Source: Chitinophagales bacterium
GTDB taxonomy: Bacteria > Bacteroidota > Bacteroidia > Chitinophagales > Chitinophagaceae
Assembly: GCA_013298665.1 (NCBI GenBank)
Contig: JAAFIK010000001.1
Location: 1 to 64,000, forward strand
Length of the DNA stretch: 64,000 nucleotides
Direction of reading: 5' to 3'
The notes below the pieces were generated by a model. That model ran no database searches. It was not told the origin of the DNA and saw nothing but the letters and a program-made list of their open reading frames with translations. Position 1 is the first letter of the stretch; each line of letters starts with the position of its first letter. Made by a program: the position numbers and the translations under genes. Below, one piece after another: positions 3,976 to 39,594 of this stretch.

Positions 3976-4338
3976 ATGGCTAACCCCATGAATAAGTTCA
4001 AAAATTTGCTGGTTTGGCAAAAGTCAATTGAACTGGCGCAAGTCGTTTACACCCTTGCAGCAAGTTTTCCTGCAGAGGAGAAGTTTGGCTTGCAATCGCA
4101 GGTAAGAAGATGCGTTGTTTCGATAGCGTCAAATATTGCGGAAGGCGCAGGCAGAGCATCAGAAGGAGAGTTTAAACATTTTTTGGGTATTGCACTGGGA
4201 TCGGGTTTTGAGTTGGAAACACAACTGATCCTTGCACATAAGTTTAATTATATATCAAACGAAACCCTGGTACAGGTAACAAACGGACTGCTTGAAATTC
4301 AGCGAATGATCAACGGATTACGCAGAAGCATCCGCTAA
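3976..4338 (+). CDS. Four-helix bundle protein (TIGR02436 / S23 intervening-sequence type)
   Basis: 120 residues from ATG 3976; a TTG at 3964 and an ATG at 3988 (MNKFKNLLVW) are alternatives. The family shows as FKNLLVWQKSIELAQVVY, then FGLQSQVRRCVVSIASNIAEGAGR and a final LLEIQRMINGLRRSIR. These small all-helical proteins were first found in intervening sequences of 23S rRNA genes, but most copies are scattered through genomes and have no settled function. The gene splits atpD from atpC and is bounded by a 15-bp inverted repeat, suggesting an inserted cassette. It is co-oriented with both neighbours, so it is probably read with them. Confidence 0.9.
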   Translation: MANPMNKFKNLLVWQKSIELAQVVYTLAASFPAEEKFGLQSQVRRCVVSIASNIAEGAGRASEGEFKHFLGIALGSGFELETQLILAHKFNYISNETLVQVTNGLLEIQRMINGLRRSIR

Positions 4339-4349
4339 GGACTAAGTAC
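4335..4349 (-). repeat. Right inverted repeat of the cassette between atpD and atpC
   Basis: CTAAGGACTAAGTAC overlaps the TAA stop of the four-helix-bundle gene and is the inverse of 3890-3904 with 14 of 15 positions matching. Further ACTAAGGACTAA copies follow up to about 4360. Confidence 0.75.
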
Positions 4350-4370
4350 TAAGGACTAACGACTATCATC

Positions 4371-4622
4371 ATGACTCTAGAGATACTGACTCCGGAAAAA
4401 AAAATATTCAGCGGCGATGTATACGGCGTACTGTTGCCCGGTATCAGCGGTTTGTTTGAGGTGCTGGACAGGCACGCCCCGATGGTAAGTGCACTGAGGG
4501 CAGGTACTATGAAAGTACTGATCGATAAAAGCGCATCAACATTATATACCATCCAGAGCGGATTTGTGGAAGTACTCAACAATAAAACCACTGTACTCAT
4601 CGAAGGGGCTGTTGAAGGATAA
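4371..4622 (+). CDS. atpC: ATP synthase F1 epsilon subunit, short form
   Basis: 83 residues. The epsilon subunit sits on the central stalk between gamma and the c-ring and couples or inhibits rotation. The N-terminal beta-sandwich is recognisable: LEILTPEKKIFSGDVYGVLLP, GLFEVLDRHAPMVSALRAG, and FVEVLNNKTTVLIEGA near the end. The C-terminal helical hairpin that inhibits ATP hydrolysis in many bacteria is missing; short epsilon subunits of about 80 residues are normal in Bacteroidota. It would follow atpD directly but for the inserted gene. A probable terminator follows at 4651. Confidence 0.95.
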   Translation: MTLEILTPEKKIFSGDVYGVLLPGISGLFEVLDRHAPMVSALRAGTMKVLIDKSASTLYTIQSGFVEVLNNKTTVLIEGAVEG

Positions 4623-34372: not shown

Positions 34373-36262
34373 ATGATACATTTTGATTTGCCCAAGGAAA
34401 AATCTTCTATCATTAAAGTGATAGGGGTAGGCGGCGGAGGAAGCAATGCGGTAAACCATATGTTTTCCCAGCAGATTGAGGGCGTAAACTTCATCATCTG
34501 TAATACCGATGCCCAGGCAATTGCCCTGAGCAAGGTGCCCAACAAAATACAACTCGGTCCGCACCTTACGCAGGGGCTGGGTGCGGGCGCTAATCCCGAA
34601 ATTGGCAGACAGGCTACTGAAGAAAGCCTGGAAGAAATCAGGAATATCCTGGAAGTGAATACCAAGATGGCCTTTATCACCGCCGGTATGGGTGGTGGTA
34701 CGGGTACGGGCGGTGCGCCAACGCTGGCCAAGATATGTAAAGACCTTGGCATACTGACCGTGGGTATTGTAACCACACCTTTTGCTTATGAGGGTAAAAA
34801 GCGCATTGCGCAGGCAGAAGCGGGTATCAACGAGCTTAAAAATCATGTCGATACCCTGCTGGTGATCAGCAATGATAAACTGCGGCACCAGTTTGGTAAC
34901 CTTAAGATGCGTGAAGCGTTTGCCAAAGCCGATAATGTACTGGCTACAGCAGCGAAATGCATAACCGATGTGATCAACAGTACAGGCCAGATCAATGTCG
35001 ATTTTGCAGATGTTTGTACGGTTATGAAAAACGGTGGTGTTGCTATTCTGGGCAGTGCAGCCGTGAGTGGCGAGAACAGGGCACATCGTGCCATTGAAGA
35101 AGCACTCAATTCACCACTGCTCAACGACAACGATATCCGCGGCGCCCGCTGGATACTCATCAACATCAACTCTGCTGAAGGGGAGAATGAGTTCACGATG
35201 GATGAAGTGGAAGTGATCCAGAATTACCTGCTCAGCCAGGCAGGCGAAAATACCGATGTAATCCTTGGTTTGGGATACGACAGCACACTGGGTGATGCCA
35301 TCGGCATTACACTTATTGCTACCGGCTTTGAGCATAAAAATCCTTTTGTAAAAGAACCCGTGGTTACCGAAGAGAAAAAGGTAGAAAAAATTGTGATGGC
35401 ACTCGCCATGCCTGAACCTGTAAAGCCACAGCCAACGGCAAAAATCTACGAGCAACCCGTGCTGCAGTTTGAAGACGACCGGGCCATTGATGAGATTACT
35501 GAACAGGCAGCGATACCCCCGGTGAACGACCCGATGATGCCGGTACTTACGGAACTGCCGGCAGCCGCAAAACTGGTAGAATTACCAAGTAAAACTACTG
35601 TGGAAAATATAGCAGAACAACCTGTATATTTTGAAATATCTTCGGCCTCAGATCAGGTAGCACCAGTTGATTATGATGCAGTCATGCAGCAGAGGCCAAT
35701 TGAAGAAAAACCAGCAGCAACACAAGGCACACCCCCCCAAATTGAATCTAAAGAAGCTAGCACTGCCTATTCGTCGGGCGGTTATTTGGCCAAGCCTTTA
35801 CAATTGTATGTAAAGGACGAACCGGAATCAGAATCCAATAAAGTAGAGGAACCACTGCCGGTGCAGCTTAACGTACAGAAAGACGAACCTGTACCTGAGA
35901 TGCACATGGTGGTTAAAGATTCCCATGAAGCGGCGGAGGAGCCAAAAAAAGATCAACAGACTCAGCCCATATTAATGTCCAATGTTGAGGAGCCTGCGAT
36001 GCAGGACGAAGCAGAGGAACTTAGGCGCCGGGCTATGGAACGTATTGCGAAGTTGCGGAATTTATCATTCAACATCAACGCAGCAGATCCTAACAACGAG
36101 TTTGAAACGGTACCGGCGTACCTCCGCCGCAATATGGAACTCCACAATTCCATAGCCAATGTAGAATCCTTCTACAGCAATTACACGGTAAAGACAGGCG
36201 ACAACAACCAGACCGAAATTGGTACAATCAATACATTCCTGGAGGGTGATAAACCCGATTAA
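34373..36262 (+). CDS. ftsZ: Cell division protein FtsZ with long C-terminal linker
   Basis: 629 residues. FtsZ is the tubulin-like GTPase that forms the division ring. The GTPase domain (1-320) has GGGGSNAVNHM, the tubulin signature GGGTGTG at 107-113, and NVDFADVCTVM for the T7 loop. The segment 321-550 is an acidic, Pro/Gln-rich linker, much longer than the about 50 residues of E. coli. The FtsA-binding peptide VPAYLRR is at 580-586, but 43 more residues follow it, an unusual feature. Two terminators follow the gene, so the dcw cluster ends here. Confidence 0.98.
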   Translation: MIHFDLPKEKSSIIKVIGVGGGGSNAVNHMFSQQIEGVNFIICNTDAQAIALSKVPNKIQLGPHLTQGLGAGANPEIGRQATEESLEEIRNILEVNTKMAFITAGMGGGTGTGGAPTLAKICKDLGILTVGIVTTPFAYEGKKRIAQAEAGINELKNHVDTLLVISNDKLRHQFGNLKMREAFAKADNVLATAAKCITDVINSTGQINVDFADVCTVMKNGGVAILGSAAVSGENRAHRAIEEALNSPLLNDNDIRGARWILININSAEGENEFTMDEVEVIQNYLLSQAGENTDVILGLGYDSTLGDAIGITLIATGFEHKNPFVKEPVVTEEKKVEKIVMALAMPEPVKPQPTAKIYEQPVLQFEDDRAIDEITEQAAIPPVNDPMMPVLTELPAAAKLVELPSKTTVENIAEQPVYFEISSASDQVAPVDYDAVMQQRPIEEKPAATQGTPPQIESKEASTAYSSGGYLAKPLQLYVKDEPESESNKVEEPLPVQLNVQKDEPVPEMHMVVKDSHEAAEEPKKDQQTQPILMSNVEEPAMQDEAEELRRRAMERIAKLRNLSFNINAADPNNEFETVPAYLRRNMELHNSIANVESFYSNYTVKTGDNNQTEIGTINTFLEGDKPD

Positions 36263-36268
36263 TGCTAT

Positions 36269-36300
36269 AGGCCGTAAGCATATGTTGCGGCCTGTTTTGT
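36269..36300 (+). terminator. Terminator directly after ftsZ
   Basis: AGGCCG at 36269-36274 pairs with CGGCCT at 36288-36293, followed by GTTTTGTTTG. The stem is 6 bp with a 13-nt loop, and the T-run is broken by G. Confidence 0.6.
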
Positions 36301-36324: not shown

Positions 36325-36360
36325 AAGAGGCTGTCCCGTAAGGGCAGCCTCTTGTTGTTT
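36325..36360 (+). terminator. Strong terminator of the dcw cluster
   Basis: AAGAGGCTGTCCC (36325-36337) pairs with GGGCAGCCTCTT (36342-36353) around a GTAA loop with one bulged T; a T-rich tail (GTTGTTTGT) follows. The 12-bp stem is the strongest hairpin in this stretch. Confidence 0.8.
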
Positions 36361-36368
36361 GTAAAAGA

Positions 36369-36817
36369 CATCCCGGGGTTGCTTTAAAACCTGCGGGGTT
36401 GCAAAGGAACGGGTACCCGTTGCAGGATACGGAGTACTAAGCACCGGGTACCCGGTACCCGTTATCCTGCGCGGAGTACCCCGTACAAAGCAGGAAGTAC
36501 CCCTTGCAAAAGAACAGAACCAGTGTACAAAGCAATACCCTGGTGTTATCCGGCAACCGGTACATATTGCTGAGTACTGCGTATTGAGTACTAAGTACCG
36601 GGTACCCATTACCCTGCAGGGGGTACCCGGTACAAAGCAACCCCCGGGGATGTTAAGCAAATGGGTACCTGTTACTCCATAATAAGTGGGTGTTACCCCG
36701 CACAGGGTATCCCTTGCAAAGCAGGGTGTACCCCGTGCAAAGGAACGGGTACCCATTATAAAGGAAACGCTCCGGGCTATAAAGCAATGGGTACTGCTCG
36801 TAAAGAAACCCACTCCG
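36369..36817. repeat. Diverged 21-bp phased repeat array, about 21 units
   Basis: The consensus is roughly TTGCAAAGnAnnGGGTACCCn. The 8-bp palindrome GGGTACCC starts at 36411, 36600, 36621 and 36747, distances of 189, 21 and 126 bp, all multiples of 21. Between them, in-register GTAC or one-base variants occur at most of the expected places (36432, 36453, 36474, 36495, 36558, 36663, 36705, 36726, 36789). Units differ by many substitutions, yet no net indel is needed across more than 370 bp. The array starts right after the dcw terminator and fades toward 36960. Confidence 0.85.
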
Positions 36818-37450
36818 GGGGATAATGAAGAGCTGGTCGGGCAGCAGGTACGCCGGATAAGAATGGGCAACCACTGCAAGAGAACCGGTTCGGAATATTT
36901 GCTATTGTGTACCAGGTACTAAAAAGATATCCCTGCCGGAAAAAATAGCCCTCTTTATGAAAAGGGGTATCCATTACTGGTATTGCTGTATACGCAGGTT
37001 ATTTCCATACCGGAAGCACAGGATTATTTGTTTTTGTGCCTTGTATGCAGGATTCTGGCCTGTATTTTGCAGCAATGTTGTACCGGAAAAAATTCACCCC
37101 ATATAACACCCCCAGCCGCAATTGGCAATAAAACGACATGATTTTTTGCAGTGCCTGGGTTGCCTCAAACCTGACCACAACCAGTAACCTGGCATATTGC
37201 ATTTGTTTATATGTGTTTTCGGCCCACCCTTTCAGGCGTGTTTGGGTTGGCAATAGCTGGTATGACGCATATTCTAACTGTGAGAATGCCTAATGGCTGT
37301 TTGCTGACTATGAAAAACATCGGGATCCCGGACGAGCGGGCGGCAGCATGCTCATCACCGCCAGCCACCCCTTGTCCGGGGTTGTTTTGTAACCTGTGCA
37401 AACCGCAACCATTTGCGTAATATCTTAGGTACCTGTATCAAAAATACACC

Positions 37451-37524: not shown

Positions 37525-39594
37525 GTGGGAAAACATATCAATAAAGTCACGGCAGCAGGTCTGCTTGTCGCTTTAGGTATTATCTACGGGGATATCGGCA
37601 CTTCCCCCCTCTACGTTTTTGATGCCATTATCAAAAGTAAGCCCACCGACCTGCGGATGCCCCTTAATTCCCTGCTTATTATTGGTGGTCTTTCGTGTAT
37701 CATCTGGACACTTACCCTTCAGACTACGGTTAAGTATGTACTCCTTACCCTGAAAGCCGATAACAAAGGGGAAGGTGGTATATTTTCACTCTACACGCTT
37801 GTACGCCGACGCAGAAAGTGGCTGGTACTCCCTGCTATGGTGGGGGGCGCAGCGCTACTGGCCGATGGGATGATCACCCCCCCGATTTCTGTTACGGCTT
37901 CCGTTGAAGGGCTAAAAAACCTCCCTGGCCTTGGCACCATCAGCGAAAGTACCATCGTGTATATTGTATTGGGTATACTGGCCATCCTGTTTTTTATGCA
38001 GCAATTTGGCACCGGATCAATCGGCAAACTCTTTGGCCCGGTAATGCTTACCTGGTTTGTGATGCTGGCCGTTCTCGGAATTACCCATATCTCCGACGAC
38101 TGGCAGGTATTGAAAGCCTTTAATCCCTACTACGGAATAAAATTATTGTTACTCTATCCCAAAGGCTTCTGGCTTCTTGGTGCCGTATTTCTCTGTACAA
38201 CAGGTGCCGAAGCTCTCTACAGTGATCTCGGCCATTGTGGCCGGGGCAATATCCGCTATACCTGGATTTGTGTAAAAATCTGCCTCATTGTACATTACCT
38301 TGGGCAGGGTGCCTGGTTATTGCGCAATTATACGGGTACCATTTTTGCCGATGCTGATATGCTCGCAAAAGTAAAGACCGCTGCCATGGCTAATCCGGCT
38401 ATTATGGCCGCCTCACCAAAGTTCGCCACCATCATCAAACCCATTTATGGGCTGATGCCCGAGTGGTTTCTCCTGCCGGGTATCATTATCGCCACAGCCG
38501 CCGCCATTATTGCCAGCCAGGCATTGATCAGCGGGTCCTTCACCCTCATCAGCGAAGCCATACGTCTCAACCTCTGGCCCAAAATGAAAATTGTTTATCC
38601 CTCTGAAGCCAAGGGACAGTTGTTCATTCCCGGTATCAATACATTATTACTCCTCGGTTGTTTTGCGATCGTACTGTATTTCAGGAATTCTGGTGCTATG
38701 GAGGCCGCTTACGGATTAGCCATTACGCTTTGTATGCTGGCCACTACTATCCTTTTCAGCAACTACCTGGTTTCCCACCGGGTCAAGCCGGGACTTATTT
38801 ATCTGTTTCTTGTGGTATACCTTACCATCGAGGTCTGCTTTCTGGTGGCCAATCTCGATAAGTTCTCGCACGGTGGCTATGTGACGCTGATAGTAGGCGG
38901 TGGACTTTTTGCCGTCATGTATATCTGGTACCGCAGCCGCAAAATCAAAAACCGCTATGTGGAGTTTGTAAAACTGGAGGACTATGTACCCAAGCTCGAA
39001 GAGCTCAGCAACGATACCAGCGTACCCAAGTATGCCACACACTTAGTGTATATGACGAGTGCGAATAACCCCAAAGAGATCGAACATAAAATTATTTACT
39101 CCATACTGAGCGGTATGCCCAAACGGGCCGACATTTACTGGTTTGTGCATGTGGATACGCTTGATGATCCCTATACCTGCGAATACCAGGTAACCCATAT
39201 TATCCCCAATGATATCATCCGTGTGGAGTTTCGCCTCGGTTTCCGCATTGCCCCAAGAATCAACCTGATGTTTAAAAAAGTGGTTGAAGACCTGGTGGCC
39301 AACCGCGAGGTTAATGTTACCAGCCGCTACGAAAGCCAGCAACGCAACAATGTTGTGGGCGATTTCAAGTTTATTGTGATGGAAAAATTCCTCAGCCAGG
39401 ATAATGAATTGCCATTTATCGAAAAAATAATTATGCAGCTCTATTTCTGGCTTAAAGAACTGAGCCTGAGTGAGGAGCGGAGTTTCGGGCTGGAACAAAG
39501 CTATGTCCACGTAGAGAAATTTCCACTCATTGTAGCACCCACCACAAAACTGAAGCTGAGCAGGATATACAACGATGACGACGAGGAGGAATAA
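37525..39594 (+). CDS. kup: Kup-type potassium transporter
   Basis: 689 residues from a GTG at 37525. Kup proteins import potassium with protons across the inner membrane. The family hallmark GIIYGDIGTSPLYVFDAI is at residues 18-35, and there are about twelve membrane helices up to about residue 450. GEGGIFSLYTLVRRRRKW, GAEALYSDLGHCG and ASQALISGSFTLISEAI are further family marks. The C-terminal cytoplasmic domain of about 230 residues is present in full. Two alpha/beta hydrolase genes follow on the same strand, 60 bp away. The upstream region carries a -7 element. Confidence 0.97.
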   Translation: MGKHINKVTAAGLLVALGIIYGDIGTSPLYVFDAIIKSKPTDLRMPLNSLLIIGGLSCIIWTLTLQTTVKYVLLTLKADNKGEGGIFSLYTLVRRRRKWLVLPAMVGGAALLADGMITPPISVTASVEGLKNLPGLGTISESTIVYIVLGILAILFFMQQFGTGSIGKLFGPVMLTWFVMLAVLGITHISDDWQVLKAFNPYYGIKLLLLYPKGFWLLGAVFLCTTGAEALYSDLGHCGRGNIRYTWICVKICLIVHYLGQGAWLLRNYTGTIFADADMLAKVKTAAMANPAIMAASPKFATIIKPIYGLMPEWFLLPGIIIATAAAIIASQALISGSFTLISEAIRLNLWPKMKIVYPSEAKGQLFIPGINTLLLLGCFAIVLYFRNSGAMEAAYGLAITLCMLATTILFSNYLVSHRVKPGLIYLFLVVYLTIEVCFLVANLDKFSHGGYVTLIVGGGLFAVMYIWYRSRKIKNRYVEFVKLEDYVPKLEELSNDTSVPKYATHLVYMTSANNPKEIEHKIIYSILSGMPKRADIYWFVHVDTLDDPYTCEYQVTHIIPNDIIRVEFRLGFRIAPRINLMFKKVVEDLVANREVNVTSRYESQQRNNVVGDFKFIVMEKFLSQDNELPFIEKIIMQLYFWLKELSLSEERSFGLEQSYVHVEKFPLIVAPTTKLKLSRIYNDDDEEE

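Follow-up and report, generated by a model that had tools for sequence, protein, structure and literature searches.

A degenerate, seven-base-phased intergenic repeat behind ftsZ and its sister copies in a Ferruginibacter-like genome

The window analyzed here is a 64,000-nucleotide stretch of DNA from a Chitinophagales bacterium. Downstream of ftsZ it carries a real, old repeat with a basic step of seven bases, three of them to each 21 bp. Copies of the array are dispersed over the genome and have near-constant length at about 23% divergence, and a coding signal is absent. The kept length suggests either that spacing matters or that the copying process preserves it. The family keeps a seven-base register through about 54 steps and in dispersed copies that have many base changes but almost no net indels, so that spacing can be told apart from sequence. 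It poses a testable question: something reads the register, or the way in which the DNA is copied maintains it. A spacing-constrained heptad platform is preferred as a working model, and a neutral satellite that preserves the register ranks only a little lower.

The locus and its seven-base register

All coordinates refer to the plus strand of the window. The upstream neighbor of the array is ftsZ (ORF, 34373..36262), the last gene of the dcw cluster. Two terminator-like stem-loops 3′ of ftsZ were located by a consensus scan at 36267-36295 and 36325..36353. Both precede the array, in agreement with a preliminary description that placed its start directly after the dcw terminator. The downstream neighbor is an ORF at 37525..39594, which we take from its sequence to encode a kup-type potassium transporter. 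The gap between ftsZ and kup is about 1.26 kb here, compared with 64-339 bp in six relatives that have kup as the first ORF after ftsZ (40 loci examined). Lag-21 identity is 0.23-0.31 in the five relatives' ftsZ–kup gaps long enough to score. Identity of FtsZ is 62-78% across the best 80 Chitinophagaceae-type loci, and the nearest named relatives by this protein are Ferruginibacter MAGs (top identity 78%). The host genome is likewise Ferruginibacter-like (4.83 Mb, 108 contigs, 98.7% complete).

The 21-bp period proposed in the preliminary description is real. Over 36369-36817, bases 21 bp apart agree at a rate of 0.465 (lag-21 identity); 1000 dinucleotide shuffles averaged 0.253 (z 9.4), and none scored as high. 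Lags 42, 63, 84, 105 and 126 are likewise high, and 21 bp is the strongest single period of the array. Nevertheless, the basic register is 7 bp. Identity is also raised at lags 7 (0.328), 14 (0.338), 28, 35 (0.377), 49, 56, 70, 77, 91, 98 (0.387), 112 and 119, and every one of the 19 GTAC sites in the interval has the same mod-7 phase. The 21-bp unit is therefore three heptads. GTAC-like cores do lie in register, as had been noted, but their phase is one of 7 bp rather than 21. Three further GTAC sites at 36848 to 36916, beyond the array, fall outside it.

The one true slip within 36369-36817 is a 20-bp step between two RTTRY anchors, at 36378 and 36398. In-phase sequence with the higher-order period of 3 × 7 = 21 bp, as defined by lag identity and GTAC phase, consequently extends only from about 36398 to 36811. 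The heptads of the array are strongly unlike one another. TRF with a minimum score of 30 recovered only two array fragments, 36705-36754 and 36443-36461, the latter with just 2.7 copies of a 7-mer.

The palindrome GGGTACCC was found at 36411, 36600, 36621 and 36747, exactly where it had been reported. A fifth copy at 36446 lies 35 bp (5 × 7) from that at 36411, on the 7-bp register and off the 21-bp one. Such sites had been read as operators of a dimeric protein, one per 21 bp and thus one per two helical turns. The palindromic nature of GGGTACCC and the dominance of the 21-bp period agree with this idea. Nevertheless, lags 7 and 14 are raised while lags 10 and 11 give no signal (0.221 and 0.201, both background), just five GGGTACCC occur in about 20 units, one of them out of the 21-bp register, and the 104-bp units of sister arrays described below carry a 20-bp step. 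We consider dimer operators very unlikely, and the two-turn spacing attributed to the array is not supported.

Sister copies and their length

A blastn search of the interval against its own genome gave 30 matches, self included. In what follows, C1 is the window copy of the array, and C65, C56, C32 and similar handles are other contigs of the same genome. A dispersed core of 307 bp (36448..36754), delimited by blastn and alignment, recurs on C65, C56, C32 and C42; over about 300 bp these four match the window copy at 75-78% identity. Between C32 and C42 the identity is 94% along about 500 bp. In the core, the mod-7 phase of GTAC is kept at 66 of 68 sites across the five copies.

On C65, C56, C26, C12 and C45 the family forms tandem units of 104 bp, each made of anchor steps of 21 bp and one step of 20 bp (15 × 7 minus 1). 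The window array has pieces of this unit at both ends. Its 5′ piece (36376..36424) matches the 104-bp units of C12, C56, C65 and C45 at 82-92% and is the sole site of the 20-bp step in the array. The 3′ piece (36736..36812) is 90% identical to the end of the C65 array and 84-88% identical to the C26 units. The 1-bp deletion behind the 20-bp step occurs in the window array, and all five contigs carry it in amplified form in their 104-bp arrays. As a result of these steps, GTAC leaves the single phase over whole arrays that hold them.

C56 ends and C45 starts within the array, and their 164-bp overlap is 98% identical. The two may therefore be one broken locus, so that the family occupies at least seven intergenic places in its own genome, and eight at most among those counted if C56 and C45 are separate. 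An ancient array unique to this locus is ruled out by these dispersed copies. The window copy lies between ftsZ and kup, and all others lie between or beside ORFs; the flanking genes are ordinary. As read from ORF maps, the gaps are co-directional, divergent and convergent, so no common regulatory role is apparent. The copies are without fixed common ends, which argues against a simple transposon.

Other mobile or foreign origins were considered and rejected. RAYT/REP mobility gains no support from this genome, in which no PF01797 (Y1_Tnp) match was obtained at E 0.001 with 98.7% completeness; the domain was found in five of 14 control genomes. REP/BIME elements are dispersed intergenic palindromic units. 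The array units resemble them in all three respects, but differ in that no Y1 (RAYT-type) transposase turned up in the genome and in that no alternating REP hairpins were seen by eye. A phage or plasmid origin was dismissed, as the array gave no blastn match to plasmids or phages and viral contigs contained no exact match to the core pattern. The array is not a CRISPR array either, its units being contiguous and degenerate rather than near-identical repeats split by unrelated spacers.

Length is kept in the core while bases change. Over its 307 columns the five copies differ pairwise at 11 to 75 positions and show no gaps; on an assumed, not inferred, tree this amounts to 139 parsimony changes and no indels. 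The MAFFT gap-opening penalty had been raised to 3, which disfavors gaps, and the core is the stretch chosen because it aligned in all five copies. Default MAFFT over nearly the same stretch also placed no internal gaps. A 5-bp gap was set by MAFFT just beyond the core, where a 21-bp unit differs. Plain BLAST of the ten non-independent core pairs gave 493 mismatches and seven gap openings, all of the latter in C1/C32 and C1/C42 and canceling within each pair.

Longer alignments gave a similar result. C56 and C65 differ by 90 mismatches and no gaps over 557 bp, and C32 and C42 by 17 mismatches and one 14-bp (2 × 7) indel. Net length differences are of 14 bp (C32 compared with C42 and C56), of 21 bp (C1 compared with C56 in a longer match and, by eye, with C65) and of whole 104-bp units. 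In C56/C42 and C56/C32, BLAST set small gaps at the 3′ ends, including one unpaired 1-bp gap at the edge, and canceling gaps appeared in some C26 pairs. The canceling and 3′-end gaps were judged to be alignment choices.

Indel rates for comparison were taken from BLAST alignments of the noncoding parts of relatives' ftsZ loci. In 36 pairs, 1270 substitutions were accompanied by 278 indels (1483 to 335 without a length filter). Pairs of at least 85% identity had 98 substitutions to 18 indels, or to 6 indels outside homopolymers. Relatives' intergenic DNA thus has 4.4 to 5.4 substitutions per indel, and the control rates together lead to an expectation of about 9 to 32 indels in the core. Even at the lowest rate, with one non-homopolymer indel to about 16 substitutions, about nine would be expected where none was seen (Poisson P about 2e-4). 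These probabilities are rough, as the control DNA is AT-rich (GC 0.31-0.36 compared with 0.53) and its pairs overlap and are non-independent. The preliminary description had proposed selection on spacing rather than on sequence. Its first part is borne out by the length kept in five paralogous copies; selection as the keeper of that length goes beyond what these comparisons demonstrate.

Several other repeats were observed in the same genome. At 731-1020 the window contains a first 21-bp array, whose higher-order unit is 42 bp (85% matches, 2% indels). BLAST (E 1e-6, matches of at least 60 bp) found no similarity between it and the array studied here, and C66 has a second copy of 133 bp of it at 96%. 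A short CTAAGGA heptad tract at 4333-4383 of the window (4.4 copies by TRF) includes one GTAC. At locus L011, two perfect tandem repeats adjoin at 807-946, one with a 12-bp unit (4.1 copies) and one with a 14-bp unit (6.6 copies); the array copy of C32 is about 0.9 kb away. Locus L016, on contig C24, has an 86-bp tandem repeat of 93-96% identity at 1337-1705.

Possible keepers of the register

Since 21 bp equal seven codons, a coding repeat of seven-residue units on one strand was considered. A 185-codon ORF lies on the minus strand, and frames are open over the core, one on the minus strand in all five copies and one on the plus strand in three of five. Nevertheless, core changes by position mod 3 number 43, 41 and 55, and 277 of 1000 permutations were as uneven. 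In three frames and four pairs, pN/pS was not significantly under the null (lowest P 0.117), and the 104-bp units shift the frame. Coding is scarcely credible as an explanation.

A structured RNA or terminator could form by pairing of the palindromic units. Folding was tried on three of the five copies, all of which proved more stable than shuffles (z -4.6 to -6.9); in one helix, at alignment positions 121-150, both partners have changed in five pairs. Good folding is, however, given by construction in palindromic repeats, and the MFE structures differ between copies by eye. Covariation over the whole structure was 0.123, compared with a shuffle mean of 0.118 (162 of 500 shuffles), and double-change pairs were no better than in shuffles (51 of 500). 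The RNAalifold covariation term was unfavorable and no Rfam match was obtained in the window, making this reading highly improbable. No tRNA was found.

The distribution of changes within the core bears on both of the leading explanations. Positions of GTAC changed less among the four copies excluding that of the window, with 39 of 87 changes in four of the seven positions (permutation P 0.009); a three-position version of the test gave P 0.051. The 557-bp pair C56/C65 showed no dip at one phase (12, 15, 18, 9, 12, 11 and 13). Heterogeneity of the core changes by position mod 7 was marginal (40 of 1000 permutations, for one of 28 moduli tried). In six of ten pairs of copies the differences are clustered by heptad at P < 0.05. 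In the window copy, 18 of 32 private differences fall in 36566..36621, a block of GTAC heptads that is its most divergent part relative to the sisters; the net length of the block is unchanged, and its heptads are of a kind scattered elsewhere in the genome. The clustering by heptad and this private block make patchy in-phase exchange a serious alternative to selection.

On such an account the array would be a neutral heptad satellite, made by slippage and unequal exchange in multiples of 7 bp and read by no protein. Its register would survive because small indels are few in non-homopolymeric, GC-richer DNA and because ectopic exchange is in phase, with exchange between sister arrays spreading base changes and not length changes. 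The clustered differences are those expected of patchy exchange, and the GTAC heptads of the divergent block, together with a family seen only in its own genome among those searched, also fit. Heptameric repeats are a known over-represented class in bacteria, for which slippage has been proposed (PMC4679880, PMC4692102). The indel deficit in the core, calculated at the lowest control rate, stands against neutrality. We regard the neutral satellite as a real possibility, somewhat short of an even chance.

The preferred explanation is a degenerate heptanucleotide-phased intergenic satellite whose spacing would now be held by a nucleic-acid-binding protein reading 7-bp steps; we put its chances at about even. 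The 7-bp steps have a preferred GTAC core and are organized in 21-bp (3 × 7) and 104-bp units. Slippage or unequal exchange by 7, 21 and 104 bp at a time would have created the array, and ectopic recombination would have spread it within the genome. A putative nucleic-acid-binding protein, or a polymer of one, might then read successive 7-bp steps. Given such a reader, single-base indels would be removed and many base changes tolerated. The protein reader, which we infer rather than demonstrate, is the weakest part of the explanation, and we know of no protein that binds the array.

A bolder form of the preferred explanation is a genome-specific, spacing-locked platform on which a protein polymer would step every 7 bp, so that length is kept and sequence drifts. 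This form is rather unlikely. If it were true, 7 bp would correspond to two thirds of a helical turn and three polymer subunits would occupy two turns, and species-specific heptad tracts across Chitinophagales would be footprints of a reader/writer family.

Heptads in other genomes and known heptameric repeats

No match to the array DNA was found in 58 other genomes, 35 of them of the same genus, with up to 11 candidates scored per genome. A search of 194 other genomes of the family, an overlapping set, with C32 as the query and three candidates per genome also gave none. In the host genome this second search did not recover C1 and C65, so divergent copies like that of the window could escape it. 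A contig scan using the FtsZ tail confirmed no relative. As no copy was found in relatives, there is no conservation by descent to point to. The repeat family was not found described in the open-access literature.

Heptad patterns were searched more widely. The pattern GTACNNNGTACNNNGTAC has 100 matches in its own genome, overlapping ones counted, whereas the backwards pattern has none. G055, which belongs to another family, has 64 matches, and the remaining 57 genomes searched have between 0 and 8. Of 396 genomes of the order, 31 have four GTAC heptads in a row; the host genome is among them, with 43 such matches. The backwards control pattern (CATGNNN heptads) gave 88 four-unit matches in G436, and G344 and G510 had 13 apiece. 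This pattern is itself a heptad, and its 88 matches in G436 indicate that heptad words with other cores exist.

In the 80 named ftsZ loci, 31 lag-7 tracts were detected in 19 loci, compared with 7, 1, 1 and 2 tracts at lags 8, 10, 11 and 13. All but three of the lag-7 tracts (28 of 31) lie outside ORFs of at least 200 codons, a space that makes up 11% of the bases. The heptad words of relatives include GTGAANN, GTCCNNN and GATACTN. A 400-kb sample of the host genome, measured by whole-sequence spectra, shows weak heptad enrichment (ratio 1.07 at lag 7 and 1.19 at lag 14) and no lag-7 tracts. Heptads seem to be concentrated in particular loci of this genome, unlike in some relatives.

Heptameric repeats have precedents. 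According to work cited in PMC4679880, most genomes that are rich in simple repeats of 5-11 nt have more heptameric ones than any other class. Intergenic direct repeats of TAACTGA were described in Beggiatoaceae, Cyanobacteria and five Bacteroidetes (MacGregor 2015, PMC4679880). In the parts of that account drawn on here, the repeat is an exact heptamer located mostly just 5′ of start codons in the main genome studied, some of the genomes have other heptamers nearby, and the gaps of close relatives are shorter and without obvious repeats. The array resembles the TAACTGA repeats in its seven-base phase, intergenic location, species specificity and clusters of differing heptamers, and in that the corresponding gaps of close relatives are shorter and show no obvious repeats. 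It differs in its strongly degenerate units, its 21- and 104-bp higher-order units, its occurrence in all gene orientations and the copying of long pieces between loci.

Heptameric LSSR are exemplified by GGGAATC in Xanthomonas and GGGGAYT in Nostoc, and the passages of PMC4692102 concerned describe them as generally having no tie to mobile elements. They too are heptameric and intergenic, but consist of a single short unit that varies in length and sequence between close species, whereas the array is old and degenerate with little length change between copies. A proposal cited in PMC4692102 links slippage to a polymerase contact of 7 nt. For the step of seven, the cited passages of PMC4679880 and PMC4692102 offer this kind of proposal, slippage, alone. 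Prokaryotic satellites derived from heptamers also exist (PMC6749651). The array is like them in being a larger satellite built from a heptamer, a likeness by description; the passages of that source drawn on here give no Bacteroidetes example.

With its 7-bp period and its intergenic location, and with related genomes showing that phase in different words, the array belongs with the heptameric intergenic repeats. Because its units are not near-exact tandem 7-mers, it is an unusual higher-order variant and not a typical member. Beyond the known repeats it adds the 21- and 104-bp higher-order units, dispersal and conservation of length.

GTAC heptads of other kinds were also observed in related genomes. 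Loci L160-L163 and genus g21 of family f21 (G055, G261, G295, G305 and G311) have many of them. Among the matches listed, their heptad trinucleotides are mostly RAD and its complement, while those of the host genome are mostly YNR, as judged by eye. At L149, L153 and L148 the GTAC heptads lie inside longer dispersed repeats (AAGACGGGCTTAGACGGGTAACAC..., AAGTATCAAGTATCAGG...), and by eye the number of heptads seems to vary between the copies of these repeats.
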